Shown here piece after piece: positions 1,614-58,258 of a stretch of 64,000 nt of DNA. A program made the translations under genes and the position numbers. The stretch is from Chloranthus sessilifolius (lineage: Eukaryota > Streptophyta > Magnoliopsida > Chloranthales > Chloranthaceae). The stretch is from contig CM037590.1 of NCBI GenBank assembly GCA_021018995.1, positions 80,446,097-80,510,096 of the forward strand, read 5' to 3'. The notes under the pieces are model-generated. The model saw only the letters and a program-made list of their open reading frames with translations. It was not told the DNA's origin and did not search any database. Within the stretch, counting starts at the first letter, position 1. Each line of letters begins with the position of its first letter.

Positions 1614-1619
1614 AGTTTT

Positions 1620-23057: not shown

Positions 23058-23073
23058 GATGCCCTTCTTTAGT
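23058..23073 (-). promoter_or_regulatory. Element B polypurine tract
   Basis: Minus strand CTAAAGAAGGGCATC directly before the LTR start TGTAGACACC. Homologous to the A tract at 43962-43977. It fixes element B as minus-strand. Confidence 0.85.
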
Positions 23074-24919: not shown

Positions 24920-25103
24920 CCCGAGTTCGGGCTGGGGGCTTTATTTCAAATCTTTCTCCCCCCTCCTTTATCTTTGAAACCGAAAACCATCTCCTCCTAG
25001 GGTTCCTTTACATTGCCTCTATGCGTGCCCCATTGCCATTGCTTTACCTGTGTGGATCGAACGTCGGCTCACGCTAGATCAAAGACCCCTTTTCTCTCTA
25101 AAG

Positions 25104-26127: not shown

Positions 26128-26128
26128 A

Positions 26129-28575: not shown

Positions 28576-28941
28576 TCTTCTAGTTTTTGGCTTTGAAAAA
28601 CTCAGTACTCTTTTGGGATTTGATTTGGATTTGTTTAAACATGTTGGGGATGGTTGATGTGATACTTCGGATTATTACTTTTGGGAAAATATTTCTGCTT
28701 TGATTTTATGCCATGATTTCTTTGTATTGGATCTGTTTCTCTGTAAGATGTGCTTGCCCAAAATGCTCAGAAAGTGACCTTTTAGGTTGTAAGCTTTGAT
28801 GTAGGATCAGTCCTACACATGAATAAACAAAACAAATGTCCAATTGTTAAATGAAAAGAGGTGTGTTAACAAAGAAACAAAAGGGGTGTAAGTCCCCACC
28901 GCTAGGTCCCAAGATGGCTGAAGAGGGGGGGACTTGTAGTG
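28576..28941 (+). other. 3' flank of B antisense gene 1
   Basis: No gene seen. AT-rich sequence between the two antisense genes, probably the 3' untranslated end of the first. Confidence 0.6.
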
Positions 28942-29093
28942 TGGCGCAACTATTAGTTGTGCCAGGTTGAAATCTCAGGCAATTTGTGCTGGCACAACTA
29001 ATAGTTGCGCTAGGCAAAATGGGGACCAAAATGCACTGGCGCAACTAATAGTTGCATCAAGTTTATCCTGGGGGGCAGTGGGTCCTTATATAC
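28942..29093 (+). promoter_or_regulatory. Promoter of B antisense gene 2: three palindromes plus TATA
   Basis: Palindromes centred at 28953, 29001 and 29048 (48 and 47 bp apart), then TTATATAC at 29086-29093 and CCCGAGTT. Same order and spacing as the promoter of antisense gene 1, with different spacer sequence. Confidence 0.8.
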
Positions 29094-29221
29094 CCGAGTT
29101 AGTCTAAAAATCAGCTCTTTTTTGTTTGACTTGGCCTTTTTGACTGGTTCCTTTTGCTCTTGCATTTCCAAGGTGGGTCCATCACCATATATCAATTTTT
29201 ATCTCCTCAAAAGATCCCTGT

Positions 29222-30605: not shown

Positions 30606-30612
30606 CCCAGAA
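30467..30612 (+). repeat. Imperfect direct repeat at the B / Athila-2 junction
   Basis: GGCACTCCGAGCCCGTAT occurs at about 30470 and 30546 and GAGTCTGATGGATCCCC at about 30522 and 30593. The second copy is shortened inside. The sequence then enters the Lys-rich Athila-2 ORF3. This looks like filler duplication made during end joining at a deletion. Confidence 0.7.
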
Positions 30613-37793: not shown

Positions 37794-40608
37794 GGTGTAG
37801 GAGGAATGATTTTCTCGACGTTGCTCAAATCCTAGATTGTGTGCTTCAATGGGAAGCAGTGATCAGTTGGGTGACCCGGACCCTGATGAAAATTGCAATG
37901 GGTATTCGGGTCATAGTTCTTTGGGATCAGGTGAGGAGGAGGTTGCGATTGACAGATAGTGATTAATCCCTTTTCCACTAACAAAGGCAGAAGTAAACTC
38001 AACGATTGCCCTAGGGGCATGAAAACTCGATCGTAGCGGGCTCTCCTTTGCTCTTGAGTCATTTGCATTCCTTGCCCATTCCCTATTCGCTGCATCTGCT
38101 CAGGCCTGACTGGTGCAAGTGGGGCTACCTGAAATTAAAATGGGATAATGTTATTATTAAGCCTGGTATTGGCTATGTTCTGGACCTTGCCCCCTGTTCT
38201 CTTATCGTTCCTTTACTCCGAAAATGTCCTAACCCCACTCGGGCCACTTGGCATGTTCTTACTCAGATGACCCTCCCTGATGGCATCCTCACATCAGTTA
38301 GCATTTCTCGCCAGATCAGTAAAGCTGGACTGCTGCTGGTACACCAAAAAGACCAAGATCCCTGGCAGAGTATTCTTTGAGATCATCTCTATCTGCTCAT
38401 CATCAGGAATTTTGTTTCTGACCTGAGCTATTAGTGCTCTCCAGCATCCCAAGTAGTCGCTGAAGGTCTCATTCTGGTTCTGTTTTAAGCAAGCCAAGTC
38501 TGGCTTTCATGGCTCAATGTCTATGTTGTAGACATATTGTTCTTGAAAGGGGTGTGTCAAGTCCCTCCATGTTTTTATCATGGATGGTTCTAAAGATGTG
38601 AACCATCTCCCAGCCGGACCAGTCAGACTCTTTTGAAAGACTTTTATTATTAGTCTCTCATCCCCTCCATATTGGCACATGTCCCCACAGTAAGACTTTA
38701 GGTGTGCAATAGGATTGCCAGTGCCATTATATTTATCGAAGGCTGGCATTTTAAATTTGGGGGGCAGGGAGACCTTAGGGAACAAGCACAAATCCGTGAA
38801 GTCCATGGCGTGGATTTCAGCACCACCCATTTTCATTAGTTGCTTCTATGTTTTGTCCAACTGTTCTTTCAGCTGTTTTGACTCTTTTGATGCAGGGGCC
38901 GTTTTCTCGGCCATTATCGACTGGACTTCACTTTGGGCCACCAAGGGGTGGGCATTTATAGGAGGAGGGTTAAGGCTGGTCAATGCCCTAGCGTAGGCCC
39001 CGCTATTCCTAATCTCATCCTCCTCATATTGTTGGTCGGCATAATGTGCAGTGAAGGCGGGATTTTCTTATTGTTGTTGCCCGGGTTGGACTGGGAATGA
39101 CATGAGTGGGGGTGGGGTGAGCCTATTTGGGGTGAGGAAAGGTTTGTTGGGTGATGGGAATTTGGTTTTGTCAAGGGGCCTGATGGGGCCATTGGGTATG
39201 GGGGGAGGTTTGAAGATGGCCTTGGAGTGTGGGGCCATGGGGAAATTGGGTTTGGGGTAAGGCATTGGTTTGACCTGAAGGTTGGGTGAAATGTTGACGG
39301 TATTGTGGATGGTGTGAGTGTGGAGTTTGGGTTTGGGCCATGAAGCCTTGTTCATTTTGTGCTATAGGCCACTGATGGGTTTGGGCCAGGGGCCCTTGGT
39401 AGGTTTGGGCCATGGGCCCTAGGTAGGTTTGGGCCAATGGGCTTTGGTGGGTTTGGGCCAAAGGGCCTGGATAGGTTTGGGCAAATGGGCCATGGTGGGT
39501 TTGACCCAATGGGCCTTGGTGGGTCTGGCCATGGGCCATTTGAGCGTTTGGGTCGTGGGCCCTTGATGGGTCTGGAACATGGGCCCTTGATGGGTCTGGC
39601 CTAATGGGCCATTTGAGCATTTGGGCCGTGGGCCCTTGATGGGTCTGGACCATGGGCCCTTGATGGGTCTGGACCATGGGCCCTTGATGGATCTGGCCTA
39701 ATGGGCCTTGGTGGGTATGGGCCATGGGCCCTGGGTAGATTTGGGTGGTGGGGTAGTGGGTCATGGGGCCCTGAGATATGTGGGACAAGGGGGTTTGGGC
39801 CAATGGGCCTTGGGGTATGTGGGAAAAGAGGGTTTGGGCCATTTGGCCTTGAGGCATGTGGGTAATGGGGGTTTGGATGGTGTGGATTATGGGGGGTTGA
39901 TGGGGGTCTTTGAGGAGTGAGGCATGGAGATTGGCTAGGGTGTGAGATGGGTTTAGGGATGTGGGGAGTGAAGGAGGGGAGGAGTTTTGAGAAGTCTTCC
40001 ACATGGAGTAGGCTTGGAACATCTCCATCATGGTCATGGAAGAAGGATTGGATGTGGGGGGTGGAGAGGGGAAATTGGGCGTGGCTTCGGTATGATCGGG
40101 CATGGCCATGGTAAGAGGTGGGATATGGGGTGGATTGGAGAGTTGAGGTGGGGTAAAGGATGGGGAGGGATTAGGGATGCTTAGGGATGGTGATTGGTGG
40201 GGTGTGGATGTTTGGAAGAAACCGGGCATGGCCCCGATAAAAAAGTTGCATGACCCGGGTAGATTGGGGGATTTATGGGAGGTTGGATAGGGAGGAATTG
40301 GTGTATGTGAATGTGGGTGGATCGGGCCTATAGGGGGAAGATGGGAAATGAGGCACGGATATGGATTGGGAGAAAGGATTTTGTGTGGATGTGGAAGGGA
40401 AATGGGCTGGACTTGACATGGGTATGGTTTGGACAAAAGATGGAGAATGGGGGGTTAGACTTTGGATATTTTGGGGGTGTCGGTTGGGAAAATGGGGGTG
40501 CCAAACGGGTCTGTAACGGTAAAGGGGGGTTGGGTGAGGGGGATGGTGGAAAAAACTTCTCCCGAATGAGAGTGGATCGACGTAAACCGGGTCCACTACC
40601 CACGACAT
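37794..40608 (-). pseudogene. gag: Element B Gag, interrupted by Athila-2
   Basis: Minus strand. Starts MSWVVDPVYV (40608), shared with A. A very long Pro/Gln/His-rich N-terminal region follows, with an octapeptide minisatellite (39365-39880), open as 421 residues at 40436-39171. The Tat gag domain is at 38836-38290: FDKYNGTGNPIAHLKSY, LTGPAGRWFTSLEP and WRALIAQVRNKIPDDEQIEM region. The zinc knuckle CNFHQGPGHPTDHC (about 37910-37870) has the CX2HX4HX4C form. Stops between blocks. It ends where Athila-2 inserted (37793), just after IIPPTP. Confidence 0.88.
39365..39880 (-). repeat. 24-bp coding minisatellite in B gag
   Basis: About twenty tandem 24-bp units encoding an octapeptide of type QTHQGPMA on the minus strand. 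A frame slip inside the array reads RAHGPDPS-like repeats. Element A has a shorter version (about eleven units, 54525-54790), so the array expands and contracts. Confidence 0.88.
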
Positions 40609-41664
40609 TCTTCGAGAGAGGGTCAGTAACGGTGCCTTGGATAAGGCCCAAAAATCCTCCTTCTTCCCCTACGAGATGACGGAGGGCAAGATGATGTCGT
40701 TATGCCGGCACTATAAACTATATTTTTTAGGTTTTTGATTTTATATATTTTTTGAATTTTTTTAATAATGTTTTGAAAAACAAAGGTTCCGAGGCCTTGA
40801 AATTCCCTTTTCGGGTGGCCCTCGTACCTTAATCAAGACCCGCGGCGACGATTCCAACGCACTTCAAAAGAATCGAAGGAGAACCTTCGATTTATTAAAG
40901 GCACAAAAATCAAGGCAAACAATCCGATCTCCCAGAATGAGCCAAAAAGAAGTTGCCGTCTTTTGATCGGTGGGGGTGTATTAGGTGTCGGAGATGGCGA
41001 GGCCTAAACAAGGCACTAAGCACACTGATTGGGGGACTCGGGAGGTGAAGGCCACAGATTCGGGCTGGTGTGCTGCTAAACAGACCTGGCGCAACTAATA
41101 CATGCGCCCAGGTGGCAGGGCACCATTTTTACACTGGCGCAACTAATAGTTGCGCCAAGCTAAAAGGTGGGATTTTAAAGCTAGCGCAACTATTAGTTGC
41201 GCCAATTATAAATTCCCAATTTTTGCACTGGTGCAACTAATAGTTGCGCCAAGCAAAAATGGGATTCCATAATGTTATGAAAGCAGAGACAGCAACCCAA
41301 AATGAGTCTCTTTTTAGGTTTTTTGTGGAAGCTGGGCTTTCGAGAACTGAGCTATTTTTCGGCAATCGATTCTCTCCTTATCGCACCTAACGGGTTTGAG
41401 TCCGGTATAACTCGCTAGCGCGCTCCCCAAGGGTTTTAAGCTTCAGAATAGGAACCCACCCGATATAACTCCGACGCAAGTGCCTTCTTAGATACTAGGA
41501 GGGCTGGGACTTTTCTGGATCATCACCACTAGGGGCTGCCGCCATACTAAGACCCGGGTGGTTGTGTGTTTGCCTAATCCTAACCCATTTAAAATCTATC
41601 CCGTAAAAATAAATTAATTAAGCTCCCTAACTTGGTTCAATTTTAACTTTTTCAAAGCTTTTCT
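40609..41664 (-). other. Element B 5' leader with palindrome array
   Basis: No gene. Holds four B palindromes centred at 41098, 41146, 41193 and 41240 (48, 47, 47 bp apart). 40735-40765 is AT-rich. 41290-41660 matches A 56205-56570. The primer site and the end of the 5' LTR are lost in the deletion at 41665. Confidence 0.8.
41087..41251. promoter_or_regulatory. Palindrome array in B leader
   Basis: Four copies of the B palindrome at near-constant period with unrelated spacers of about 24-25 bases. The matching A leader array (55998-56162) has a plus-strand TATATAAG 34 bp after its last centre; B has a weaker TTATGAAAG there. Confidence 0.88.
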
Positions 41665-42554
41665 CTTTAGGAGAGATAGTTAAGAGGTAGAGGGAGGGTG
41701 CTAGGATAGAACACACACCTAACCTAGAGGTTTTTCATGAAAAACAAGGGTGGAGAAGAGGTTTAGATTTCTGGTTTTTGTATGGGAAGTGTGCACCAAA
41801 GGGAGAAAGATCTTCTCACTTTCAGCTCGTTCTCTCTTAGGTAGAAATTCTCAACCCCTAAACCAAGGGGTGGGGGGGCTCTATTTATAGGAAAAGGGTG
41901 GGTTAGGAGGCTACTTAAGAGCTAAACAGTGCCTGGAAGTTGGCTATCTGAGGTGGGGTCCATAATTAATACTGGTGCAACTATTAGTTGCGCTAGGCTT
42001 AAATCCTGAGAGAAGTGGCCTGGCGCAACTAATAGTTGCACCAGGCAAAGTTATCACTGGCGCAACTATTAGTTGCGCCAAGCCATTTCTGGGGAGACAT
42101 AGCCTAGCGCAACTATTAGTTGCACCAAATCCCTAGGAGGGGGCCCACCTGATTTTACTCTTTTGTCCTCCGGATTCGGACCGCCGTATCTTTTGATGTA
42201 CAACTCCAATTGGGGCAATTCTTAGACCATTGGAACGTTGACACCCTCTACTTTTCAATGATATGAGATTTGTTCATAGTAGATGGCCATTGCTAGTTCC
42301 AGTGCACCCGTCCTCATTCATAGCTTGATAGGGTTCGGTTTAGGGTTCGGAATGGGTTCTAAGGGTCGAGATTGGTTTCTAAAGGTTCGGGGTAGGTTCC
42401 TAAGGGATCTAGGATAATTTCTAAGGGTTTGGGGTGATTCCTAAGGGTTCTAGGGTGGTTCTTAAGGGTTCCATACATGCCATCAAAAGCCCAGAAGTGT
42501 GCCTCTCTCGAAAGGTATTTTGATCGGGCCTTGGGCCAAATTTGGGTGTCTACA
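41665..42554 (-). repeat. Element B 5' LTR, truncated and internally deleted
   Basis: Matches 21871-23057 of the 3' LTR but lacks about 300 bp after GAGCTAAA (41926). The left edge joins the leader at a shared CTCTTTAGG-like word. Retains TATA (CTATAAATAG, 41890-41881 minus) and four palindromes centred at 41984, 42032, 42069 and 42116. Confidence 0.88.
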
Positions 42555-43961
42555 GAAGTGTGAAGTATGACTCTGATTAACCGATTCATGCCAAAGGCTC
42601 CTGGGTAGGGGCTTTGGTTATCGATCAGGAAGGTGTTAGGCACCCGATCAACTCTCTCAAAAGTGGTTTCTACTTATGGCCTAAATGAATATGAAAAAAA
42701 ATAGCACTTTCTCTTGCCCGAAGGTACTATGATCCTATCAAGCTCTCGTCAAATACCAAAAATTTGGCGACGTAATAGGTTAGATAAAGGAAAAGCAAGG
42801 AAGGTAGAGGAGTAGAGGGGAGAACCAGAGCTCTCGAACCCTTGTAGTACACTTGTGGACCTTAGCGTAGGTGCACTTGATGAGATTCCGATGGCTTGGA
42901 TAATGGAAGAGTGGGTTCTAACCTCTAAAGTTTGCTAGCTAAGGGGTAGGTGAGGAGGGCTAGGGGGGTAGCACTCACCTAATGTAGGAGATTTTTTATG
43001 AAAGGTAGGGTCTAAAGGAGACTTTGAAGTTATGGAATTTGTATGAAAATGGTGCACCAAAGGGGAGGAGAACTCTCTCTTAATCTTTTCTCTCTTTTGA
43101 ATTTTTTTCAAGCCTTTATAAAGGGAGGGGTGCCTCTCTCTATTTATAGGAAAATGAGAGGCTAGGGGGGTCCTTAAGGGCTAATTAGGGTTAGCAATTA
43201 GGTAATCCTAACATCTAAAGTTTCCTAGGTTTTTAACGTTAAGGATATGTGTGAGGATAGGTTCAATGGTAGATGATAGGGTGAGGTTTCAAATGACTAG
43301 AGGGTTACAATAGGGTAAATAGGGGTGCAACAGTCCTAATGAAACCCACCCTAAATATTGAGATGGTTAATAAGTCAAACCCTAAAAGTGAAATTCAGGA
43401 AAAAACCAACAGTTACTGTAGCTAAGCCTGAAGTGTATTTTACACACGCCAAACATTACTACAGTGCCAGAGAAGTTTAGAGACCGCTGGGGGCCCACCT
43501 GTACTTGGTGTGTGTAATTACACACCAAGCCATTTCTGAGAAAAAAATGCCCTGGCATGTGTAATACACACGCCATGCACCTCAGCCAGCGATAACTTTT
43601 AAGCATTCTTCATTTCGTCGTAACTTTTGAAGTACAACTCGAATTGAGGTGATAATTGGCTTTTTGGAAAGCTGGAGAAGTTCTCTTTCTAATGGAATAT
43701 AACTCAGCCCCAGCAAAGATTTGTATAAACTTTAGCACTCCTTCCAACCACTGCTCTAAAGGGTTCAGAAATTAGTCCGAGACAGGTTCTAAGGGGTTTG
43801 GAAAGGTTGGGGTTGATTCCTAAGGGTCGAGATGATTCCTAAGGATTTGGGAAGGTTGGGGATGATTCCTAAGGGTTTGGGAAATGCTATCGGAAGCATG
43901 AGGATGCGCCTCTCTCAAAGTATGTTTCGATCAGGCCTTGGGCCAGATTTGGGTGTCTACA
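42555..43961 (-). repeat. Element A 3' LTR, main piece
   Basis: Begins with the duplicated GAAGT, continues the LTR broken at 21367 and ends TGTCTACA. Minus-strand TATA CTATAAATAG at 43149-43140. Three A-type palindromes centred near 43440, 43517 and 43563. Confidence 0.93.
43430..43577. promoter_or_regulatory. Palindrome array in A 3' LTR
   Basis: Three copies, arms TGGCGTGTGTA or TGGCATGTGTA, spaced 78 and 46 bp. The first gap is long enough to have lost a copy. Flanking bases are those that flank the B array. Confidence 0.85.
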
Positions 43962-43977
43962 GGTGCCCCTCTTTGAT
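43962..43977 (-). promoter_or_regulatory. Element A polypurine tract
   Basis: Minus strand TCAAAGAGGGGCACC followed by the LTR start TGTAGACACC. Confidence 0.87.
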
Positions 43978-44901
43978 ATCCGATCACTAATGATCGAATG
44001 CCAAAGACAAGAGACATTCGAAGAGGCAGAAGGGATCACTGATGGGTCTGCCGTATTCAGAACGAACCTCAAGCATCAAGTGGGTAACATGGTGAGTAAA
44101 GGAAAGCCCCGTATGTCGGGAAAAATGTTTGTTCCTCAAGGTCTTCGGTCCCTAAGCGCTTAGCAACATTACTGGGCATAACCGAGATGGAGAGAGTTGC
44201 GAAAGCCCAATATGTAAAAAAAAAATATTCGCTTCTCGAGATGATTGAAGATGTTTGATGTTCAAGTTTTATTCTGAATAAAATAGCTCTGTAAGTGAGG
44301 GGGTGATTGACCCATACCTAAAGATAGGTGTGAAGCAAATATGCGAAGATCTGCAGTTTGTGTCCAATCATATGAGGCATTGATTGCGCCATTTGATTGG
44401 CCACAAGTGCCCCTGCGTGAAGCAGGGTTCGAGGTCTTTGGGCAACCCATCGATCTCGAAATCAATTTAGCATGACTACCCGAGCGGAGTGAAATGATGT
44501 CGCAACACTTTTTGAGAGTACATGTTGCTTTTGGAAGATACATATCCATATGTGTATGCTATTATTATTTTTTGTTATTTTTCGTATAATTATTTTTGTT
44601 ATTATATATATTTATTTTTATGTGGATTTTTTTTTTGTTATTTTATGTGAATTTTTATTATTTTATGTGATTTTTTGTGTTATTTTATGTGAATTTTTTT
44701 ATTATTTTATGTGATTTTTTTTTTATGTTATTTTATGGGATTTTTTTGTTATTTTATGTGAATTTTTGTATGTTCGAGGCTTTGAGCATGCTCATCGATC
44801 CTGAACCACTAATTCTAGCACAGCCTTCCGAGCAGATTGAATGGAGATCGATGTGCCGTTTGGGGGTGTGTGCACCACTTCGGGTCTGGGGAGGATCAGA
44901 C

Positions 44902-45290
44902 TCGGTGTGTACAATACACAAGCAAAGCCAAAATGGGCCAAGAATACCCTGGCATGTATTATACACGCCAGGCCAAATCTGGCCAGGAATAGCCTGGCAT
45001 GTTAATACACATGCCAGACCAAATTGGGGCCAAACATTGCTTGTCGTGTATTTTATACACGCCAAGCCAAAACTATGGGGGGGAAAGTTAAAACACCCGA
45101 GCCCGAGCCCAAAGGGGCTTTTTTCAAAATCCTCTTCTTCCCCCTACCCCAAACCAAAATGGAACTTCCTCCTAGGGTTCCCTTGCATTGATTTGAGCTG
45201 CGTTTCTGCCGGTGTTCCCTCTTGCCGATTAAACGCACGCTCCACGCCGGATCAAGGAACCATTCTTTTGAAGGTGATCATTGTTCTAAC
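44902..45290 (+). promoter_or_regulatory. Relic antisense-gene promoter and leader in element A
   Basis: Four A-type palindromes centred near 44912, 44960, 45005 and 45052, then GTTAAAACACCCGAG where B has TTTAAATAGCCCGAG, then a leader homologous to B 24945-25110 (CTCCTAGGGTTCC) and a splice-donor-like AAGGTGATC. No PMD gene follows: it has been deleted and the sequence reaches the integrase end instead. Confidence 0.75.
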
Positions 45291-47260
45291 CTCATTTCCT
45301 TTGATTTTTCTTGAATTTTTTTGCAATGTGGTTAGGATTCTTGCATTTTTAGATGATGAATGAGTGATTCTTCTTGCAAGTAGAATTATTTATGACTCAT
45401 TTGATTTCTTCCATGTGCATTGGCCTTGATTTTGAGCAAAAATATGATGATTTTTTGATTTTTTTAGTGATTCCCTACTCTTTTTCTCCATACGTTGATG
45501 TGATTAGGGGCTTTTCTTTCCTCTCTTTTGCGTGGATCGAGATGGTCTTTTTTTGTTTGTGCCGTGCACGAAGATGATGTTTTTTTTATTTATTTATATT
45601 ATTTTTTTCTGTTTTTGCATGTTTATTGTGTATATATTTTTGGGTTTTTGTTTGTTGGAAAAAAGAAAGACTTTCTTCTCTTTTTTGTATGTTTATACAT
45701 GTTTTGCTTTGCTTTATTTTTTATTTTTGTTAATTTTTTTTGTTTTTGTAAAATGGGAAACTTGGTATTGTTCCGATTACTCCTTTGGAGATGCAGTGCA
45801 CAGAGTGCGGCCTAAAATAGGAAATGAAAATTTATTATCTTTCGCAAAAGTGCCCTCCTCACCCTGTGATGGTGCATACAGTGTGGGTGTGAAAAATGGG
45901 AAAGAAAAATATATTATCTCTTATAAAAGTGGTCTTTCCGGTCATCAATCCAATCATCCTGGAGTGGGGCGTGCACAGTGCTAGCCTGAATATAGGAAAG
46001 GAAAGTTTATTATCTCTTTTTACTATTATTCTTTTGTGTTTTTGTTGGTTATTTTTTTTTGGTGCCTTAAACGTAAGGGGAAGCAAACAGATCCCAATTT
46101 TGAGCTTAGTCGAACACCTTCACGTGGTTGGATACGAGTGAGGTCAGCAATTTTACAGAGGCCAGAACATCCGCCCCTTTGGATCAAATTGACCTTTTCT
46201 CTTTACCCTGGGTCATATGTTTGACGGTGCAGCTATTTAAGACATTCTTGGTTGTGACCTGATTTGAGCTAACATGAGCGGCCCAGCAAGGAATTAGGTA
46301 GCACAGGAAGGTGAGTGAAGGATTCCTCTCTCTTTCCTCTCCTTTTTTCTATTTCTTCTTCCTTTTCTTTTCTTCATTTTTTCCTTTTTTACTCACAATG
46401 CCCAAGGTGGGTTTTCGTCATGCCCGTTATTTCACTCTTTTTTACCCGTAGCGTCCTTTCGGGTTTTCACTACGTCTATGGGTATACATTTTTAGCCCAA
46501 GCGCCTTTTAAGGTTTTCACCTGGTCCACACAAGCTTGTTGTTTTTACCCATGGCGCCCTTTCAGGTTTTCACTACGTCCATCTTGCTTTGAGCTTGTAT
46601 TTTTTTTTTTTTTTTTTACTTTATCAAAGGCCATGACATGGACGTCGATTCTGTCATAGCCGGCTGGATGGAATTCTTTTGTTTGTCTCATAGTTTGGCT
46701 TGTGCTAACTCAATAGATACTGTGACTAGTCGTGAATCTTAAAGAGGGCTTTATTCAGGGATGTATCTTGGCCATGGGTAAGGTTAGGAATTTTTAAGGT
46801 ATTACGGGTTTAAAAGGTTTCCTTGATAGAGTTCCAGTTGTCATAATACACTTCTTCCTTGGGAAATTTTAACTATACATGCCCCATTTTTTCTTTTCAA
46901 TTTTTGTTCTTTTTACTCTTTTTTTTTCAGACGTCCTCTTTTTGGGATTTTACTTTTTTGATTTTTTTGGATTTGGATTTTATGGTAACTCTTTTCTTCT
47001 TTCTTTTGATGGTGTATACACATATTTTTTTCCTTTTTCTGGGAGGGGTTAATGAAGGAACGACCTTTAGCTCAACAGGGATAGCAAAGGGGTATAAATG
47101 TTTAGGGCCACGTTTTGGCTACTTGGCTTTGAACTGATGGCCTCTTTTACTGGTTCCTTACGCAGTCATGTACCCATCTTATCAATCCTTATCCTACCAC
47201 AGGAGACTTAGGAATAGAAATGTCGGATGTATCCAGCATTGATAGGCTCAAGAAAGTGAA
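45291..47260. other. Element A region between integrase and relic promoter
   Basis: No credible gene. T-rich intron-like sequence (45300-45760), a repeated GGAAA..TTTATTATCT word (45820-46020), and 46395-46600 with three degenerate copies of a roughly 60-bp unit (TTTTACCC..GCGCCCTTT..GGTTTTCAC). A run of 18 T near 46599-46617. The unit probably derives from the basic tail found after Tat integrase. Confidence 0.65.
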
Positions 47261-48340
47261 CTTCATTCATGGTGGCGAGGCAGACGGTGTACCCCAGGAG
47301 TACTTCTCAGAATGACATAAGGTCCTTCCCAGTTGGGCCTGAACTTCCCTCTTGGATCAGTATGGAGGGAGAAGAAGATTTTCTTGAGTACGGTGTCTCC
47401 CACCTTCAGATCTTAATCGCATACATGTTTGTTGTAAAAGCGTACAATTCGGCCGTGATAAACTTGGGTATAGCACAAGGCTAGGAGTCTTTTCTCGTCT
47501 AGCAAGTTTAGCCGCTCAAAGCGAGACCTCTCCTTTTTAGCCTCATGTAGGCCTGATTCCATGAGATTGCGGAGTGAGGGTACTTCAACTTCAACTGGAA
47601 GAACTGCCTTGGTTCCATACACAAGAGAAAATGGTGCTGCCTCTGTAATAGTACGGATTGATGTTCGATAGGCCCATATTGTAAATGATAACTTTTCACT
47701 CCAATCTTGGTAGGTAACAACCATTTTCTCAAGGATGCAAATGATTTTCTTGTTAACGGCCTCCACAGCCCCATTGGTTTACAATCAATCAGGTGACGAG
47801 TGATGGTGCTTGATCTTGTATTGTTCGCAGAAAGCCCTAATGCGCTTGTTCGCAAAGTTGGTGCCATTATCCATGATAATGTCCTTGGGTAGGCCAAACC
47901 GACAAACGATGTTCTTGATGAATTTTTCAACGTGGCTGGTCGTGATGTTCATATAAGATGCGAACCTCTACCCATTTTGGTGAAGTAATCGATGGCGACG
48001 GGGATGAACTGATGCCCATTAGTTGCTTTTGGGTTGACCTTTCCGATGACGTCGAGGCCCCATGTAGTGAATGTCTAAGGAGTGGTCATGCTGTGTAGAT
48101 CAATGGCAGGAGCATGTATTAGACTGGAGTGTTCTTGGCATTTGTAGCACTTCTAAATGTGCCTGCAACAATAAGTTTCCATGGTGGTCCAGAAGAATCC
48201 CTGCTATAGAATCTTCTATGCAAGCATATGTCCGTTGACGTGGGCTCCGCATACTCCCTCATGGATCTCGTTCATGATGTTGGCTGCCTTGCCTTTAGTA
48301 AGGCATCTAAGCAGGATATTGTTGTATGATCACTTGTAGA
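47260..48340 (-). pseudogene. IN: Element A integrase
   Basis: Minus strand, read across frames. CYKCQEHSSLIHAP (zinc domain end, about 48155), GLDVIGKVNPKA (first Asp, about 48050), DIIMDNGTNFAN (second Asp, about 47870) and NGAVEAVNKKI (Glu, about 47770), so D-D-E is present. 47766-47413 is open with LSFTIWAYRTSIRT and PVEVEVPS. After a TGA the C-terminal domain is partly readable (LKVGDTVLKK, NWEGPYVI). Frameshifts make it inactive. Confidence 0.88.
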
Positions 48341-49560
48341 GGCACTCACCACAGTTGACATAATTAATCGCTAAACGTTGGATAGTCCGTCTTGGACGTA
48401 CCATTGGGGAAAGTACAGGTTTCGAGGAAATTCTTGATGTCTAAGAACCATGGAAGTTCGTCATCTAACCTTGTAGGTTCCTCAACCTGGAGGCTGAAGG
48501 ATGGCTCATTTCTTTGTTCAATCATGATCAACTTCATCTCGACTCCATGGGAGATTTCTACCATTGAGGCCAAAGTTGTTAATTCATCGGCAAAGCGAGT
48601 TCTTACCCGTGGGACATAGGACAAAGTAACATTATCGAAGCACGCTATCAGATCTTTGAGGTGCTCATGGTATGGGATCAGCTTCTCATCCTTTATCTTT
48701 CAATCTCTATTTTTCTAGCATATGATCAACTGTGAGTCACAAAATACGCTAACGTGAGTTACATCCAGGTACAAAGCTGCTTGCAGGCCTACTGCACAAG
48801 CTTCATACTCGGCCAAATTGTTGATGCAGGGGAAATTGAGTTTGATGGAAATTGGTACGTGGGATCCTTTTGGCAAAATCAAAATAGCACTGACTCCTTG
48901 ACCTTTGGCATTTGCCGCCTCATCAAAGTGCATTACCCAGGATTTCTCTGTCTCTACGATATGGTCCTCTGTCAAAAACAAGATATCCTCATCTGAGAAT
49001 TCAGTTCTTAAAGGCTCATAATCTAGTAAGGGATTGCCAGCAAAATGATTAGCTAGTGCCTGCCCCTTGATGGACTTCTGAGTGATGTACGTGATGTCAA
49101 ATTCTGATAACAGAAACTGCCAGCGAGCGGTTCGACTAGTGAGAGCCAACTTTTCGAATAGGTATTTCAACGAATCCATTCGTGGTAGGAGTAGAATGAC
49201 CTGGGATAACAAGGAATGGCAGAGCCTTTAGGTAGCCCATATGAGAGCCAGGCATGCTTTCTCCAGATGAGAAAAGAGTGTCTCGTAGTCAGTAAATTTC
49301 TTGCTCAGGTTGTAGATGACCTGCTCTCTTCTTCTTATCTCATCATGATGCCCTAGGACATATCCCATCGATACTTTTATCGTGGAGAGATACATTAAGA
49401 GTGGTCTCCCCGGCTTGGGTGGTACTAAAACTGGTGGGCTGAGAAGGTAGCCTTTGATCTTATCAAATGCTACTTGATAGTCGTCATTCCACTCAACAGG
49501 TGAATCTTTTCTCAGTAGTTTGAAAATCGGTGTGCAGATAGGAGTGAGTTGTGTGATGAA
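48341..49560 (-). pseudogene. RH-aRH: Element A RNase H and additional archaeal-type RNase H
   Basis: The first RNase H is fragmentary (PPKPGRPLLMYLS, then YNLSKKFTDYE and LEKACLAL, 49440-49240). Open 49212-48715 covers its end (WQFLLSEFDITY) and the second RNase H typical of Tat/Ogre: MHFDEAANAKGQGVSAIL, NLAEYEACAVGLQAAL and FCDSQLIIC with the Asp, Glu and Asp residues. A TAG follows. A linker (48624-48364) leads to integrase. Presence of the extra domain supports the Tat assignment. Confidence 0.85.
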
Positions 49561-49568
49561 CCGACTGA

Positions 49569-50771
49569 TTACTGTATCCTACCCAAGAACCCTTCGATCT
49601 CCTGAATAGACAGTGGTGGCATTTTCGTGATGACTTTTACCTTGACTGGATCAACTTCGATACCTCTCTTGCTGATAATGAATCCTAGTAACTTTCCTAA
49701 CATAGCGCCGAATGCGCATTTATGAGGATTCAAACATAGCCTGTATTTTCTAAGCCTCTCAAACAGCTTTTGGAGGTTTATCAAATGGTCACTTCTCTCT
49801 AGTGACTTGGCGATCACGTTGTCGATGTATACCTCAATCTCTCGGTGCATCATGTCATGAAATAGCACCGTCATGGCTATTCAGTATGTTGCGTCGGCAT
49901 TCTTCAACCAGAACGACATGACCCAATAGCAAAAAGTTCCCCAAGGGGTGATGAACACTATCTTCTCTTGGTCTGCTTCTTCCATCTTGATCTGATTGTA
50001 TCCGAAGAATCCATCCATAAATGACAACATCCAATGCCTGGCGGTGTTATCGACCAAGATATCGATGTGTGGCAAAGGGAAGTCATCCTTCAAGCTTGCT
50101 TTGTTTAAGTTCCTGAAATCAATGCATATGCAGACCTTCCCATCCTTCTTTGGTACCGAGATGATATTGGATAACCACTGAGGATACTTAGAGACCATGA
50201 GAAATCCTACATCATATTGCTTGATGACGCCGTCCTTTACTTTCAGCATGCATTCTGGTCGGAGACGTCTCAACTTCTGCTTGACCGGCTTAACATCAGG
50301 GTAGAGTGGCAACTCATGCTCGACCAAATCGGTGTCCAAACCAGGTAAGCCCTCATATGACCATGTGAAGATGTCTTGGTATAACCGAAGGAAATCAATC
50401 ATGCCTTTTCTTTCCTCGGGAGATAGCGATATTCCGATCTTGGTGATTCTAGGAGTCTCCTCGATCCCTAGATTGACATCCTTTGTTTCCTCTACGATAG
50501 GGGTAGGACCATGCCCAAAGTCAAAAAATCGTTCAAAGAGTTCATTAGGGAGCTCCTCAGTAGGGATTTCCTCATCCAAACTCGTGACTCCTACCTCTTC
50601 TTGTACTTCTACAGGAAAGGGGTCGACTTCACGTGAGACGGGATTTTTGATTAAGGCATCATATTCTTCGATTTTCTTGGGAATTTTGAAAGATAATATT
50701 TTTGGATTTTCCATTTTTTCTACTTTTTTAGATTTTTCTTTTTCTTTGGAGAGGGGCTCTTGGCAAACCAA
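49569..50771 (-). pseudogene. RT: Element A reverse transcriptase
   Basis: Minus strand, mostly open 50771-49881, then 49874-49569 in the same or adjacent frame. Blocks: KIGISLSPEERKGMIDFL, FTWSYEGLPGLDTDLVEH, VCICIDFRNLNKASLKDDFP, MLSFMDGFFGYNQIKM (first Asp present). The catalytic box reads YIDN (about 49830) where the family has YVDD, a CpG-type G to A change that removes a metal-binding Asp. A stop sits between ATFQ-type region (49880) and YIDN. Inactive. Confidence 0.9.
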
Positions 50772-51489
50772 GTCCCTATATATACATGGTATTGCCTGCC
50801 AAGGGCTTATCCCACTTTTTATAGGCTATTTTTTTTTAGAAAATGGGTGCTGAATTTCAGGCCACTTGCCACTTCCAGAGTTTGGGACATTGACGCCCAA
50901 TTCTGTACCTGTGGTGCTGCTCCTTTACCTGTTTGGATGGAGGGGGTTGACTGATATCGTTCATTGGAGTCAGCTCCCATCATGTTGATCCTAGGTTCGT
51001 CTGGGACTCTATCCTCAAATGTCAGCAAGGTCCTATGGTGCTTTACCATAGGGGGAGATTGTGCATGTATAGAAAATTCTTCCTCAAAGAGGGACAGAGT
51101 GGCTAGGTCTACTTCTAGGTTGGGGGGAACAATTTGAGGATTTGTGGGGTGGACGGGGGCTACTGGTTTATGTGGGGTTAACTGTGCTGCCCCATTCTAA
51201 TCAATCTTCACGATCCCTACGCTTACAAAGGTCTCCCTGATGTGAGGTCTAGGACGAGGTTCTTCTTCTAAGCTTATTCCCATGGCTTTTGCTGCAGCAA
51301 TTGCTCTAGCCTTCTCCTTGGCCTATCTTACTTCTTCTTCAGTGGGCTTATAGCCTAGCCCAAATCTTACTTGCTGGCCATCCTGGGCCCTAGCAAACTC
51401 TCTTTTGCCCTGTAATCGGGATCCCATCCACTTACCTTTTTTATAGCCCCATTTCTAGAGCATGGCCACCGCTGCGACCATTCGCCTTC

Positions 51490-52446
51490 GATTTTCAAGG
51501 TGATGTTTTCTGGGGCTCTGGGACTACCGCTGATACCTCATATTCGAAGTTGTGGAGATATGCATCTTTGATTGTGTGCGGCACATCTAATACCTTTGGG
51601 TTCTCAATGTTTTGGGTGGATTTTTTTCTTTCACCATGCCCTTCACCTATGATGGTGATGATCATCTGCTCAGTCACAAACTTAAGTTTCTGATGCAATG
51701 TTGAAGGTATTGCCCTGACCTGATGTAACTAAGGGTGCCCTAATAGCAGGTTCAAGGAGGACCTGATGTTCATCACTTGGAAAGGTATGGAAAAGGTCAT
51801 TGGCCCGATTACGAGCTCAAGATCAACTTCCTCGATTATCTCTCTCCTTGTGTTATCAAACCCTCTGGCACTGGTTTTTGTTAGCCTCAACATACAAGGA
51901 TGTACCACTATTTTGGTGGTTGTTCTCAGGGGACACACATACAAAGCAGACCCATTGTCGATCAATACTAATGTGATTACCATATTTCTAGTTTCTACAG
52001 TGATATTGAGGGATTTAGAATGATTATTTCCCTCCTCTGGTAAATCAACATCCGGGCTTACTTGAAGAGATACATGTGCATTTTTAATGCCCCATAAGAG
52101 CTTGAAAATGAAGCGGGGATGTCATTATTAAATCCCAAACTATGATATGGGCTGACATTCTTCTTAGCTGGGTTTTAGGTATGTGTTCTCGGCTCATCTT
52201 CTCAAATGAGTTTACCACAGTTGCATCTTTCTTCCCCTCTGGTTGGACTGGTGCTAGTACTGGTGCATCGAGTTGGTTGGAGATCTTTCCTGACTTGGTG
52301 ACAAAATCAACTGCCTTGTCCCTGCTGCTATCAGCATTAATATCTATTTGACTATAAATGAGTGGGACCTGATGAGGATCATAAGTTAGTCCTAGGATCT
52401 GGAATGGAATGACAATGGGTATTTGATGTGCTTGTACTGATGGCAT
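51490..52446 (-). pseudogene. pro: Element A protease and flanking linker
   Basis: Minus strand. Linker 52446-52084 (with REHIPKTQLRRMSAHIIVWDL). Protease 51983-51729: active loop VLIDNGSALYVCPL (Tat form D-N-G-S), then the RREIIEEVDLELVIGP and SLNLLLGHP blocks. Linker 51698-51495 follows (HNFEYEVSAVVPEP). Between 51490 and 50860 the frame is scrambled. Stops separate the pieces. Confidence 0.82.
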
Positions 52447-52464
52447 TGGAAAGGTGGGTAATAC

Positions 52465-55400
52465 CTAGTTAACTTCTAGAAGGGTGGAAAAGGTGGGCCA
52501 AAGGGGGTTATTGGGGGTGGCGGATGACTGTATGGGGGCTAATATGGGAGGGGTGGGCCACTGATAATTGGTTGGTGATGGAGGGACATGGGGGATAAAA
52601 TCGGCCATCGGGGAATTGCTCAGGGCTGCCGGGTATGGTTGATAGGAGTTGATTTGGACATAATTGACCGGAGGCGGTGATGGGAAATATACCCTAAGAT
52701 CTAAGGGTTCTGTTTGTGGCGTGGAAAAGTGATTTGCCAAATTCAAGGGTTCGATCACCCCAATACTTATATCTTCTTGGTCTCTCTGCCGCGGTGCCAT
52801 AAAATCCTCCTGAGCATGGATATAATCCGATGGATCAAATTCCTCCTTATCTTCTTCCAATGTGCTGATGGTAGGTCTTGGGCCTGCCCCTCCTGGTAGG
52901 TGTGGGTGTAGTGGCACCTGGTGTATATTGGCATGCTGACTGGCTTGGGGAAGTGTTGGAGGGATGATCTTTTTGGCCTCTGTCAAGTCTTGTATTACAT
53001 GTTTTAAAGGAAAACAATGATCAATTGGGTGGCCCGATCCCTGATGGAAGTTGCAATGGGTGTTAGGGTCATAATTTCTCGGGATTGGATTCGGCGTGAC
53101 TGGAGTGCTGTGACCAGACCCTTTTCAATTAACGAAGGCAACAGGATATTTAGTGCCTGCCCCAAGGGTGTGAAGATTCGATCAAAATAGGCTTTTCTCT
53201 GTTTTGGGGTCATCTGTGCCCCTTCGCTATTTCCAATTCTCTACATCGGCTCGCTTCTGGTTGGGGTTTGTTGGGCTGCTCTAAATTGGAATGGGATTGT
53301 GCTGATATTGGGTCGCATGTTGCCAATTGTTTGTACATCTGCCCCAGTTCTTCTTTCATTCCTCTGATCGACGAACCTCCGGACCCCACTGTTTATAGTT
53401 TTATTCAAATGCCCTTCTCTTATCGTATCCTCACAGCGATTGGCATTCCTAACCAATTCAATAAAGGTGGACTGCTGTTGGTATACTAAGAAGTCCGAGA
53501 TGACTGGCAGGGTGTTCTTTGATATCATTTCAATTTGCTAATCGTCAGGTATTCTGTTCTGGACTTCAGATGCCAGCGCCCTTCATCGCCCAAGATAATC
53601 ACTAAATGCTTCTTTGGGCTTCTGCTTTAATCAAGCTAGGTCAGATTTTCTAGGCTCAATGTCTATGTTGTAGATATGCTGTTCTTAGAACAAGTGGGTC
53701 AGGTCTTTCCATGTTTTGATCGTTGAAGGTTCCAACGACATGAACCATCTTAAAGCCGGGCCCGTAAGGCTTTTTTGGAAGACCTTTATGAGCAAATGCT
53801 CATCTGCCCCATACCGACACATGTCTCCATAGTAGGATTTGAGGTGTGCAATAGGGTTGCCTATGCCATTATATTTGTCAAAGGTAGGCACTTTGAACTT
53901 TAGGGGTAAGGGGACTTAGGAGAATAGGCACAAATCAGAAAAGTCTGTGGTGTGAATTTTGGTTCCACTAATTTTCATCAATTGTTTCTAGATTTTGTCC
54001 AGTTGTTATTTTAGCTGCTCTGATTCTTTAGATGGTGGTGCCGCTCTTTCAATTGTCGGTCTCCATTCACTCTATGTTGCCGGGGGGTTGGTGATTGTGG
54101 GTGGTGGAGGATGGATGCTTGTGTGTGCCCCTATGTAAGCCCCGCTATTTCTTATCTCATCTTCCTCATACTGTGGGCCTTCATAAAATTGGGGAAGGGT
54201 GAGATTTTCCTATTAGTGTTGAGTAGTTTGGAGGGGTGTTGGGTGGGACCACTACACATGGGGGAAGCTTGGTGGAATGATGGGATAAGTGGTGGTTAGA
54301 TTTTGGTTTAAGACCTGATGAGGCCATTGAGTTTGGAGGGATACTTGGGGATGGACTTGAGGTGCATGGGGATGGGTGAATTGGGGTTGATGAAGGGCAG
54401 GTGCCGAATACCCGTATTGGGTCGTGTGGGAGGCTTGTGGGTGAGCGAGATATTGCGGGAGTTGTGGTGGGTATGGGTATGAAGATCCAAGGTTTGGTCC
54501 TGGTTGGGCTTGGGTGTAGTGCATGGAGCCTGGATGGGTTTGGGTCATAGGATCCGGATGGGTCGGGACCATGGGGTTTTGGTGGGTCTGGCCCATTGGG
54601 CCTTGATGGGTCTGGCTTGTTGGGTCTTGGTGGGTTTGACCCGTTGGGCCTTGATGGGTGTGGGCCATTAGGCCTTTATGGGTTTGGGCCATTGGGCCTT
54701 GGTGGGTCTGGACCATTGCGCCTTGGTGGGTCTAGCCTGTTGGGCCTTGATGGGTCTGACTTATTGGGCCTTAGTGCCTATTCCATGGGTCCCCTGATAT
54801 ATGGGGGGCTTGAAGGGTAGGGATGATGGGGGGTTGATAAGGGTCATGGGGGAATGAGGCATGAAGATTTGATAATGTATGGGATGGGTTCAGAGGTGTG
54901 TGGGGTGGGGGAGGGAAGTTGTTTTGAGAGGCCTTCCAAGTTGTGTAGGTCTGGACCATCTCACCTATCATGGCCATTAGAGAGGGGGTGGATGGAGATG
55001 GTTCACTTAAGGGGATGTGGGGTGTGGATGAGGTGGATGTGTGGGAAAGATCGGGTATGGCCCTGGTAAAATTGGGCATGACCTAGGTAAACGGGGGGAT
55101 GTGTGGTGGGTTAGAGAAAGTGGATGTGGTATGGGTAAATGCGAAAAAATTTGGTATAGATTGGGGGGATGAGAAATGGGGCATGGTGGTAAAGGTGGGA
55201 AATTGGGGCAGGTCATGGGTGAATGTGGATGGAATGTGGGATGGATCTAGAATGGACATGGAGTTGGAGATGGGTATGGTTTGGGAAAATGAGGAAAAAT
55301 GGGGTGTCAGATTTTGGGTGTTTTGGGCGGCGGTGGATGGGAAAATGGGTGCACCGAAGGGCCCGGTGACGGTAAATGGGGATTGGGTGAGGGGGATGGA

Positions 55401-55490
55401 TGTGAAGACTTCTTCCGCATGGGAATGGGTTGGGGAATGTGACGGGGATGAATCGAGATTGGCGTATGCCTGATCCACTACCCACGACAT
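52465..55490 (-). pseudogene. gag: Element A Gag
   Basis: Minus strand. Same plan as B: MSWVVDQAYANL (55490), Pro-rich leader domain, octapeptide minisatellite (54790-54525), open 154-residue part 54716-54252, Tat gag domain 53891-53240 (FDKYNGIGNPIAHLKSY, LTGPALRWFMSLEPS, EMISKNTLP), zinc knuckle CNFHQGSGHPIDHC of CX2HX4HX4C type (about 53050-53010), and a Pro-rich tail 52986-52465 (EEFDPSDYIHAQEDF). Many stops, including TAGs at Trp-type positions. Confidence 0.87.
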
Positions 55491-55997
55491 GGCTTGGTGG
55501 CGGGTGGGGTACGGGTGCTTCGGATGGGGCCCGTAAAGCTTTCTCCTTCTCCCTCTGTAGGATGACGGAGAGTAAGGCGATGTCGTTGTGTCGGCACTAC
55601 AGGTGTTTTTTTTCTTAGGAGTTTTAATTTTTTCTTGATTTTTTATTTTGATTTTTGATTATTTTTGGATAAAACAAATGAACCTTTAGTACGGGTTCTG
55701 GGGCATTGGAGTTCCCCTTTCGGGTGGTATTTGTACCTTAAATAACTCCCGCGAGGGGATCTCGGCGTGCTTCGGAAGAGTTAAAGGGAAAACCTTTGAT
55801 CAATTGAAGGCATGAGAAACAATGCAAACAACCCGATCCCCCAAAGCCAGTCAATAAGAAGTTACCCTCTTTTGACTTGCGACGGCGTATTGGGTGTCGA
55901 AGAGTGTGAGACCTACCAGAGGAGCTAAACCACTAAGTGGGGGACTCGAGGAGGTGATAATGGCTTCAGATTCGGGCTGCCAAGCCTAGAACAGGCT

Positions 55998-56190
55998 TGG
56001 CGTATGCATTATATGTGCCAGGCCAAATTCTAGAGAATATGGATTGCCGTGCGTATTATACACGCCAAGCTAATTCTGTTCAGTTTTGGCTTGGCATGTG
56101 TAATATACACGCTAGAGCAATTCTGGGAAAATTAAGCTTTGTGTGTATTTTACACACGCCAATTATAAACAGAGTGTATAATTATATAAG
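55998..56190 (+). promoter_or_regulatory. Palindrome array and antisense TATA in A leader
   Basis: Centres 56009, 56056, 56103 and 56149 (47, 47, 46 bp). TATATAAG starts 34 bp after the last centre on the plus strand, the distance seen in the antisense-gene promoters of B (28 and 38 bp). This would drive transcription antisense to A, into its 5' LTR. Confidence 0.65.
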
Positions 56191-56976
56191 CAGTAGAACA
56201 ACAAGCTCGAATTCAGTCTCTTTTTCTAGTTTTTCTGAAAGCAATGCATCCGGGGACAAAGTTTTGCATTGTAACGGGTCCCTCCTCACCAAGCCTAGGG
56301 ATACAGGGTTGATTCGGGTCAACTAACTCATTCCCCCATGGTTTTAAGCTTCGTAACAAGATCAGTTACCCACCCTATATACCTCTGGCGTAAGCGCCTT
56401 CTCAGATACTGTATGGGGTGGTACTTTTTCAAATCATCACCACTAGGGGCTACCGCAGTACTAAGAACCGGGTATTTGTATCTTTGCCTAAAACTTCCAA
56501 CCCTTGATAAAATCTACCCCCGACAAAATTCAATTAAGTCACCTTCTTGGTTCAATTTTATTTTTTTTATTTTTAAGGGAGTTTTGCTTTAAATTCCAAA
56601 AATCGGGGGTGATGGTCCCGTGCCGCCTCTACGGGCTGACGTTCACTGGTACGATATGATTGCAATAAATTAAATGCTCACATAGGCTCACCAAACGGTT
56701 AAGGCTTGTAAATGCGCAAGTAAGCCCGCCAATTGGCTAAGGCATGTAAATGACGGAAAATAAAAGAATGGTAAAGACGATATTCAAGTAGGCCCGCCAA
56801 TTGGCTAAGGCACGTAAATGACAAAAAAGTAGGGGTAAGTAATAACAAGACCGAATTGTAGGGGTGAGAAAAATCAATGAAATCATAGGAGTGGGTGAAA
56901 AATTAGAAGAGACATAAGCAAATGTTAGTGAAAATGACAAAAAGGACAAACTTCAAGGGAAAGCTCTACTAGCTAC

Positions 56977-56994
56977 TCCCTAGTAGAGTCGCCA
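56977..56994 (-). promoter_or_regulatory. Element A primer binding site, tRNA-Arg type
   Basis: Minus strand TGGCGACTCTACTAGGGA, two bases after the LTR end. It matches the complement of a plant tRNA-Arg 3' end (TGGCGACTCCGCTGGGGA) except for three transitions. tRNA-Arg is a known Ogre/Tat primer. Confidence 0.78.
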
Positions 56995-56996
56995 TC

Positions 56997-58253
56997 TATG
57001 CAACTGTGGATCTCATCGATCTGTCGCGACGATGCGCTCGTTTAATAAAAAACCTAGACTCGCCACCTGGAGCTTTTGGTATCCCGAGAAACCTCAAATA
57101 AATATTAAATTCACCGAAGTGTCAAATATGACTCTGATTAACCGATTCACGCCAAAGGCTCTTGGATAGGGTACCCCTACCCAAGAGTCAGAGCTCTCGG
57201 GCCCTTGTAGCACACTTGTGGACCTTCATGCAGGTGCACTTGATGAGCTTCCAATGGCTTGGATGATGGAAGAGTGGGTTCTAACCTCTGAAGTTTGGTA
57301 GCTAAGGGGTAGGAGAGGAGGGCTAGGGGGGTAGCACTCACCTAAACTAGGAGATTTTTGTATGAAAATGTTGGACCAAAGGAGAGGAAAACTCTCTCTT
57401 AATCTTTTCTCTCTTTTGAATTTTTTTCTAGCCTTTGTAAAGGGAGGGGTGCCTCTCTTTTTATAGGAAAAAGGGAGGTTAGGGGGGTGCTTAAGGGCTA
57501 ATTAGGATTAGCAATTAGGTAATCCAAACATCTAAGGTTTCCTAGGTTTTTAAGGTTATGGATATGTGTGAGGATAGGTTCAATGGTAGATGATAGGGTG
57601 AGGATTCAAATGACTAGAGGGTAGCAAATAGGGTAAACAGGGGTGCAATAGTCATAATGAAACCCACCCTAAACATTGAGATGGCTAATAAGTCAAACCC
57701 TAATAGTGAAATTCGGGTAAAAACCAACAGTTACTGTAGCTAAGCCTAGCGTGTGTTTTACACACGCCAAACATTGCTATAGTGCCAGAGAAGTTCAGAG
57801 CCTGCTGGGGGCCCACTTGTACTTGGCATGCGTAATATACACGCCAAGCCATTTATGGGAAAATAAGGCTTGGTGTGTGTAATTCATGCGCCATGCACTG
57901 CAGCCAGGGGCAACTTTTATGCATTCTTCAGGTCGCCATAACTTTTGAAGTACAACTCGGATTGAGGTAATTCTTAGCTTGTTGGAAAGCTGGGGAAGTC
58001 TTCTTTCCAATGGAATATAACTAAGCCCTAGTATACATCTGTGTAAACTTTAACACTCCTCCTTCCAACCACTTCTCTGGAGGGTTCATAAGCTGTTCCG
58101 AGACGGATTCTAAGGAGTCCAGGAAGGTTGGGGCTGATTCCTAAGGGTTCAGGATGATTCCTAAGGGTTTGGGAAATGATATTGGAAGCTCAAGGGTGCG
58201 CCTCTCTTGAAGTATATTTCGATTGGGCCTTGGGCCAGATTTAGGTGTCTACA
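56997..58253 (-). repeat. Element A 5' LTR (1257 bp, internally deleted)
   Basis: Outer end TGTCTACA then GTTTT. Relative to the 3' LTR about 240 bp are missing after 57170; the junction is a short inverted repeat (CTCTTGGATAGGG / CCCTACCCAAGAG, 57168-57196). TATA-like CTATAAAAAG at 57470-57461. Three palindromes centred at 57758, 57835 and 57881. Confidence 0.92.
57747..57893. promoter_or_regulatory. Palindrome array in A 5' LTR
   Basis: Three copies with the same 77 and 46 bp spacing as in the 3' LTR (78 and 46). Confidence 0.85.
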
Positions 58254-58258
58254 GTTTT

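Follow-up and report, generated by a model that had tools for sequence, protein, structure and literature searches.

How can one short block of letters come to be replaced, on both arms of a palindrome, at many dispersed sites of a mobile element? The question is raised by a stretch of 64,000 bp from the genome of Chloranthus sessilifolius (assembly GCA_021018995.1, contig CM037590.1, positions 80,446,097 to 80,510,096 of the forward strand), here called the window, which is plant-like DNA with nested long terminal repeat (LTR) retrotransposons. Two of these, element A and element B, are by their sequence features two related plant Ty3/gypsy elements. Both carry arrays of 23-bp palindromes in which the outer frame (TGGCG...TA) is common to A and B, and the inner four letters of the arm (the block) differ at nearly every copy.

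Palindrome arrays in two nested elements

The two elements lie in the window as follows.

58253 to 21244, minus strand: element A, with the target duplication GTTTT at 21239-21243 and 58254-58258
56997..58253, minus strand: 5' LTR of A
42560..43961, minus strand: main part of the 3' LTR of A, the rest being at 21244-21367
21368..42554, minus strand: element B, inserted within the 3' LTR of A, with the target duplication GAAGT at 21363-21367 and 42555-42559

Clean 5-bp target duplications bound both elements. The Kimura two-parameter divergence between the two LTRs is 0.21 in A (1236 sites) and 0.083 in B (888 sites), and the higher value fits A as the older insertion. A first-pass annotation, made by a model from the letters alone, had described A as an element, which it is; the element proved to be split, its 3' LTR resuming at 21244-21367 past the nested B.

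In total, 33 palindromes were found in nine clusters, 19 of them in B (half-site TGGCGCAACTA) and 14 in A (half-site TGGCGTGTGTA). In A the block TGTA is almost as frequent as TGTG, and the exact arm TGGCGTGTGTA is left in only 4 copies. The clusters, with the positions of their sites, are these.

22383..22633, minus strand: B 3' LTR cluster, block CAAC; 22383, 22470, 22518, 22555 (with a short insertion within) and 22611
24776..24894, plus strand: B aORF1 cluster; 24776, 24824 and 24872, upstream of the TATA-like ATTTAAATAG (24910-24919, by eye)
28942..29059, plus strand: B aORF2 cluster; 28942, 28990 and 29037, upstream of TTATATA (29086-29092, by eye)
41087..41251, minus strand: B gag leader cluster; 41087 (one arm CATG), 41135, 41182 and 41229
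41973..42127, minus strand: B 5' LTR cluster; 41973, 42021, 42058 and 42105
43429..43575, minus strand: A 3' LTR cluster, blocks TGTG/TGTA; 43429, 43506 and 43553
44903..45064, plus strand: A antisense-promoter cluster; 44903, 44950, 44995 and 45042, upstream of the TATA-like GTTAAAACA (45087-45095, by eye)
55998..56161, minus strand: A gag leader cluster; 55998, 56045, 56092 and 56139
57747..57893, minus strand: A 5' LTR cluster; 57747, 57824 and 57871

That the arrays are real, and lie far beyond what chance would give, is clear from the counts. Matches to the arm pattern TGGCGNNNNTA number 30 across the window, where 2.5 would be expected and 100 shuffles never yielded more than 6; a few of these matches are unrelated, the putative primer-binding site (PBS) of A among them. 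A two-arm scan returned 19 B and 11 A sites of 23 bp, and five shuffled controls gave 0, 0, 1, 0 and 0. A looser scan added three A sites with an indel of 1-2 bp (43506, 44950 and 44995); it picked up 5 stray rows elsewhere as well, with 2-4 matches in its shuffled controls. A chance origin is ruled out by these window counts, scans and shuffles, and the 14 palindromes that the first-pass annotation had assigned to A are borne out as 11 sites of 23 bp and three with an indel.

The clusters of A and B are placed alike, namely in each of the two LTRs, within the gag leader and ahead of the antisense gene aORF1 or its remnant, and their positions are equivalent except for the extra aORF2 cluster of B (28942-29059), upstream of a second antisense gene. 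The equivalence claimed in the first-pass annotation thus stands for the shared clusters. Its list of places (LTRs, leader, antisense relic) stands too, with labels that had to be mended because gag-pol lies on the minus strand: 55998-56161 is the leader of A, and 44903-45064 lies upstream of the antisense-gene remnant. The spacing of 46-48 bp given there describes most of the centre intervals, to which 37, 77 and 87 bp have to be added, along with 56 bp in the copy with the short insertion. The matching distal LTR interval is 87 bp in B and 77 bp in A. Such changes by about 10 bp at a time hint at helical phasing, the independent events behind them numbering two or three.

Several likely control regions have such a cluster next to them. 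In B, 15 bp separate the final palindrome from ATTTAAATAG at aORF1, and 26 bp separate it from TTATATA at aORF2; CCCGAG follows each of the two B boxes and also the corresponding GTTAAAACA of A, all these TATA-like boxes having been read by eye. The LTR sites sit upstream of a minus-strand CCTATAAA box, with the nearest palindrome about 280 bp upstream of it in the three LTR copies without a deletion. In the 5' LTR of B, 286 bp between the TATA box and the sites are deleted, one palindrome included. Past the leader cluster, a AGCCCGAATCTG stretch is kept between A and B.

A kept frame and a switched block

We compared the elements by MAFFT alignments of the LTR, leader and aORF1 regions, summing one LTR pair (the high-coordinate copies, B_LTRhigh/A_LTRhigh), the leader and aORF1; site 22555, with its short insertion, was left out of the identity counts. 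The block agrees between A and B at 10/75 positions (13%), the frame at 104/134 (78%, an upper estimate), the spacers at 142/297 (48%) and the flanks at 521/846 (62%). Listed in the order LTR, leader and aORF1, identity is 4/20, 4/32 and 2/23 in the block, 25/37, 47/55 and 32/42 in the frame, 30/58, 52/131 and 60/108 in the spacers, and 158/249, 133/223 and 230/374 in the flanks. Given the 62% of the flanks, the binomial probability of 10/75 is 7e-18, and the block falls below even 25% (P 0.01), while the frame exceeds the flanks in identity (P 3e-4). In the remaining three LTR pairings identity was 4/20, 1/20 and 1/20 for the block and 21/37, 25/36 and 22/37 for the frame. As to the single central base, the three summed pairs had agreement in 0/3, 0/4 and 3/3 sites. 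As read from these alignments, the block differs beyond neutral expectation, and the change is mirrored on both arms.

Within each element the blocks hardly mix. The 38 arms of B read CAAC (34), TAAC (2, one of them at 22555, where the short insertion cuts the arm), CACC (1) and CATG (1), so that 37 are nearer CAAC, none is nearer TGTG and one is a tie. The 22 arms of the 23-bp sites of A read TGTG (9), TGTA (8), TGCG (2), TATG (1), CATA (1) and CATG (1); 20 are nearer TGTG, one is nearer CAAC and one is a tie. The three A sites with an indel, counted apart, start with TG on 6/6 arms (TGTG, TGTA or TGTT; read by eye). Free variation of the block within one element is ruled out by these counts. 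Plain CpG decay is likewise ruled out as the source of the difference at positions 8-9 (TG vs AC). At positions 6-7 (TG vs CA) a common descent from CG is possible, yet A is strongly TG and B strongly CA.

A half-way form is seen at the leader site 41087 of B and 55998 of A, which align with each other and have the right arms GGGCGCATGTA in B and TGGCACATATA in A. The CATG there has its first two letters as in the block of B and its last two as in that of A, and may be a relic of an ancestral block; a single arm pair is no proof by itself. In A, CATG is also the right arm of 57871; it probably arose within that copy, since the LTR partner site 43553 has TGTG.

The first-pass annotation had held that the frame was kept and the inner block switched on both arms, and the homologous clusters confirm this. 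The block TGTG that it gave for A is the commonest form, closely followed by TGTA, and its change at every site holds for nearly every copy, two A arms and one B arm departing from it. Of the conserved non-coding sequence it described, the flanks are indeed homologous and the spacers are poorly kept, least of all in the leader. The mixing of blocks that it wished to see checked amounts to very little, at least within these two elements. Its central claim of a concerted change that all sites followed is upheld in the switch at dispersed homologous sites, and has to be qualified by the copying of modules, which is indicated by the spacers. The explanation that it gave, a dimeric DNA-binding factor with altered recognition, is partly supported, the factor, its change and its dimeric form being putative.

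The likeness of spacers was scored as z from 200 shuffles each, among spacers outside the low-coordinate LTR copies and the 54-bp LTR spacers of A. Across different clusters the spacers of A are alike (mean z 3.22, 15 pairs) and those of B hardly so (0.71, 37 pairs). Between A and B the mean z is 1.16 within the same cluster (18 pairs) and 1.43 across different clusters (52 pairs), the best match being the first LTR spacer (z 5.6); for the last aORF1 spacers z is 3.7. From the likeness in A, the new block probably reached several sites by copying of a palindrome-plus-spacer unit of about 47 bp. Our reading is that all clusters would go back to one old palindrome-plus-spacer module, with either renewed copying later in the line of A or faster loss of spacers in that of B. 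The palindromes of B are near-identical in all five clusters even where their spacers are unlike, as is expected if selection holds the palindromes.

The decay of the B arms follows a pattern. Among 37 intact arms, positions 2, 4 and 5, where the frame has its CG and CHG sites, are changed 22/111 times against 7/296 elsewhere (P 2e-8), always by C>T or G>A, and 8/8 of the G2>A changes lie in CTGG, a CHG context. With the interrupted right arm of 22555 included, the counts are 24/114 such transitions and 9/304. The elements were probably methylated, and the pattern is consistent with past methylation of the sites.

Antisense genes, gag-pol and neighbouring elements

On the strand opposite gag-pol, B carries a gene with a Plant Mobile Domain (PMD) behind a palindrome-bearing putative promoter, and a second gene behind another array.

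26387..27124, plus strand: B aORF1, with a PMD (PF10536), broken, with one stop within the stretch
29339..33110, plus strand: B aORF2, broken, extent approximate; an N-terminal DUF7745-like part, then long proline-rich and coiled-coil-looking frames
47413..55658, minus strand: gag-pol remnants of A, comprising gag (by likeness to B gag), reverse transcriptase (RT), RT-RNase H and a second RNase H
56994-56984, minus strand: PBS-like TGGCGACTCTA adjoining the 5' LTR of A

In aORF1, 26387-26821 matches PF10536 at 4.8e-12 (46.1 bits, cut-off 34.9), and 26825-27124 is a weak continuation at 0.024 (14.3 bits, below the cut-off). The match of aORF2 to PF24924 (DUF7745) is weak (E 0.011, 15.2 bits, below the cut-off of 26), and three aORF2 pieces had no Pfam match. 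DUF1985 was absent from the antisense pieces scanned with Pfam, a part of the whole set.

In A, Pfam scans found the RT (PF00078, 32.3 bits, cut-off 29.6), RT_RNaseH_2 at 49231-49578 (2.8e-15) and a second RNase H, RVT_3, at 48718-49227 (8.2e-05, 23.0 bits, cut-off 21.6), with a further RVT_3 match at 48367-48699 (0.0022, below the cut-off). The stretch 47416-47778 had no Pfam match and is by its position probably integrase. Because of the two RNase H matches we take A as Tat-like, dual RNase H being a mark of Tat elements (PMC9289625). The gag of B matches PF03732 (27 bits, cut-off 24.1), and no pol was found in B by blastn or piecewise blastp of A against B at the thresholds used. The PBS-side end is missing from the 5' LTR of B. 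In A, the TGGCGACTCTA at 56984-56994 may be a PBS complementary to tRNA-Arg; it also matches the TGGCGNNNNTA frame, probably by coincidence.

Likeness between the two LTRs of B is uneven, 97% over one stretch and 88% over a second (21874-22137/41663-41926 against 22643-22942/42140-42439), perhaps by conversion or uneven methylation decay. A third LTR, of the same kind as those of A and B and homologous to them, lies at 62380-64000 and runs off the window; its corresponding slot holds no palindromes. At 1-13827, on the plus strand, lies another LTR-type element with repeats 12.6 kb apart that are 97-98% alike, and its frames are distantly like the RT and downstream pol of A; the two-arm scan found no frame palindromes in it.

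Relatives were also sought outside the window, by searches that detect only relatives of similar length sharing exact words. Within viral contigs the degenerate palindrome matched 85 stretches, in 2/85 of which the mirrored block was perfect, with no relative among them; the array pattern gave 2 matches, both at loci already among these, the PMD pattern gave 3, none confirmed, and the B and A motifs gave 0 each. Used as protein queries, a single piece of aORF2 (2399 candidates, none at E 0.001) and the PMD piece (617 candidates) brought up no relative.

What may read the palindromes

With a probability of roughly 0.5, we consider the palindromes to be operator sites, at promoters, of a dimeric regulator that is made by the element, whose preference for the block changed and whose sites followed. 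The regulator would plausibly come from the element's own antisense genes, which in B are the PMD gene and the weakly DUF7745-like gene. Within a Tat-like Ty3/gypsy element, such a putative sequence-specific dimer would act at the promoters of the LTR and of the antisense genes and at the leader, and would activate or de-silence its own family. The outer frame and the dyad would provide contacts shared by both families, and the inner four bases the family-specific ones. After A and B diverged, the preference of the factor for the block would have shifted in at least one lineage, and the sites would then have come into line, in part through base changes and in part as palindrome-plus-spacer modules spread between clusters.

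Several points weigh against this proposal. There are two families only, and a table of block per family has two rows. In the LTRs alone the frame (57-69%) is not clearly above the flanks (60-67%), its excess coming from the leader and aORF1 pairs; MAFFT, moreover, tends to register frames, which makes the 78% an upper estimate and gives the block figure no help. Three arms are off their block (right CATG at 57871 and right CATA at 55998 in A, right CATG at 41087 in B). CG and CHG sites are absent from the inner block of B, and its uniformity after insertion is partly due to the low mutability that follows. Because of module copying, the sites do not testify to the switch fully independently of one another. 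The antisense stretch of A keeps the promoter region with no PMD recognisable by eye or by piecewise blastp against B (E 1e-4), the Pfam scan having covered part of the A pieces, so that protein and block are not comparable between A and B. The PMD is not known to bind DNA. Its function is given as unknown in PMC9289625.

Host transcription factors could bind the palindromes instead, A and B having recruited different or differently tuned ones, which we hold to be unlikely and yet the strongest competitor. Host factors are often employed by plant LTRs, those of the NAC family bind as dimers, and the A half-site TGGCGTGTG seems to fit the NAC-type consensus. Heat shock factors are named for ONSEN (PMC12859917), and the promoter positions would suit any activator. 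Two unrelated host factors would, however, be less expected to leave a shared 5-bp outer frame with a wholly different block at homologous sites, and one long palindrome serves LTR, leader and antisense promoters alike. Concerted evolution with no change of factor, in which a module of about 47 bp overwrote the old array in one lineage by drift or recombination, would account for the spacers of A being alike across clusters (mean z 3.2 vs 0.7 in B and 1.2 between A and B in the same cluster) and for the low identity of the leader spacers (52/131). However, homology persists in the first LTR spacer (z 5.6) and in the last aORF1 spacers (z 3.7), and yet the block differs there; the frame survives the replacement, and a copied unit would still need to work. 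We regard this explanation as less probable than recruitment of host factors. Improbable, in our view, is a role of the palindromes as hairpins in the genomic RNA, for packaging, processing or as a source of small RNA: to judge by position, the genomic transcript would take in every cluster, and the arms pair, but the symmetry reaches the single central base (TAWTA), which is needless for a hairpin loop, the antisense-promoter sites lie upstream of TATA-like boxes and the intervals step by about 10 bp.

Among the open-licence papers found, judged by titles and openings of abstracts, none dealt with arrays of palindromic operators in plant LTR elements. The nearest logic is that of the VANDAL transposons of Arabidopsis. 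Each VANDAL family has arrays of a motif in its non-coding regions, to which the anti-silencing VANC protein of that family binds; the motifs differ between related families, the arrays evolve as repeats and the divergence of motifs tracks the family (PMC5735166). According to a meeting report of 2026, unpublished results suggest that VANC structure and target DNA coevolve (PMC12859917). In common with this system, A and B have family-specific arrays of short motifs in non-coding regions that evolve as modules. VANDALs, in contrast, are Mutator-like DNA transposons with DUF1985 in VANC, and A and B are LTR elements with gag and RT; the VANC21 motif YAGTATTAY stands in arrays of a single orientation and is no palindrome (PMC5735166), whereas A and B have a 23-bp palindrome with a kept frame and a switched inner block. 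The A/B system thus resembles VANC/VANDAL in logic and is not a member of it.

Other known systems share single features. Foamy viruses are not known to have an antisense gene or palindromic arrays with a family block. Foamy viruses, which are animal retroviruses, have in Tas/Bel1 a DNA-binding protein of their own that acts on the LTR and an internal promoter (PMC517496). Tat/Ogre-like Ty3/gypsy elements carry extra domains including the PMD (PMC9289625, citing Steinbauerova 2011), and have in common with our elements the dual RNase H (A), the extra PMD gene (B) and the large size; palindrome arrays go unmentioned in excerpts of PMC9289625. The Arabidopsis PMD proteins MAIN and MAIL1 share the domain with B and differ in being host genes; the promoters of genes dependent on them are enriched in a 'DOWN' DNA motif, direct DNA binding being unstated in excerpts of that source (PMC7156037).

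Tentatively, and with less confidence than in the operator proposal as such, we suggest that an antisense-encoded dimeric regulator (PMD or DUF7745-like) may de-silence or switch on its own promoters, that the families may have become mutually independent by changing block and protein, and that the system may be an independently evolved LTR-retrotransposon counterpart of the VANC/VANDAL code. The sites predict the target of the protein exactly, and hence the proposal is directly testable. If it is true, the antisense PMD genes of plant Ty3/gypsy elements would have a function, and private operator codes would evolve in retrotransposons too, beyond the VANDAL DNA transposons.

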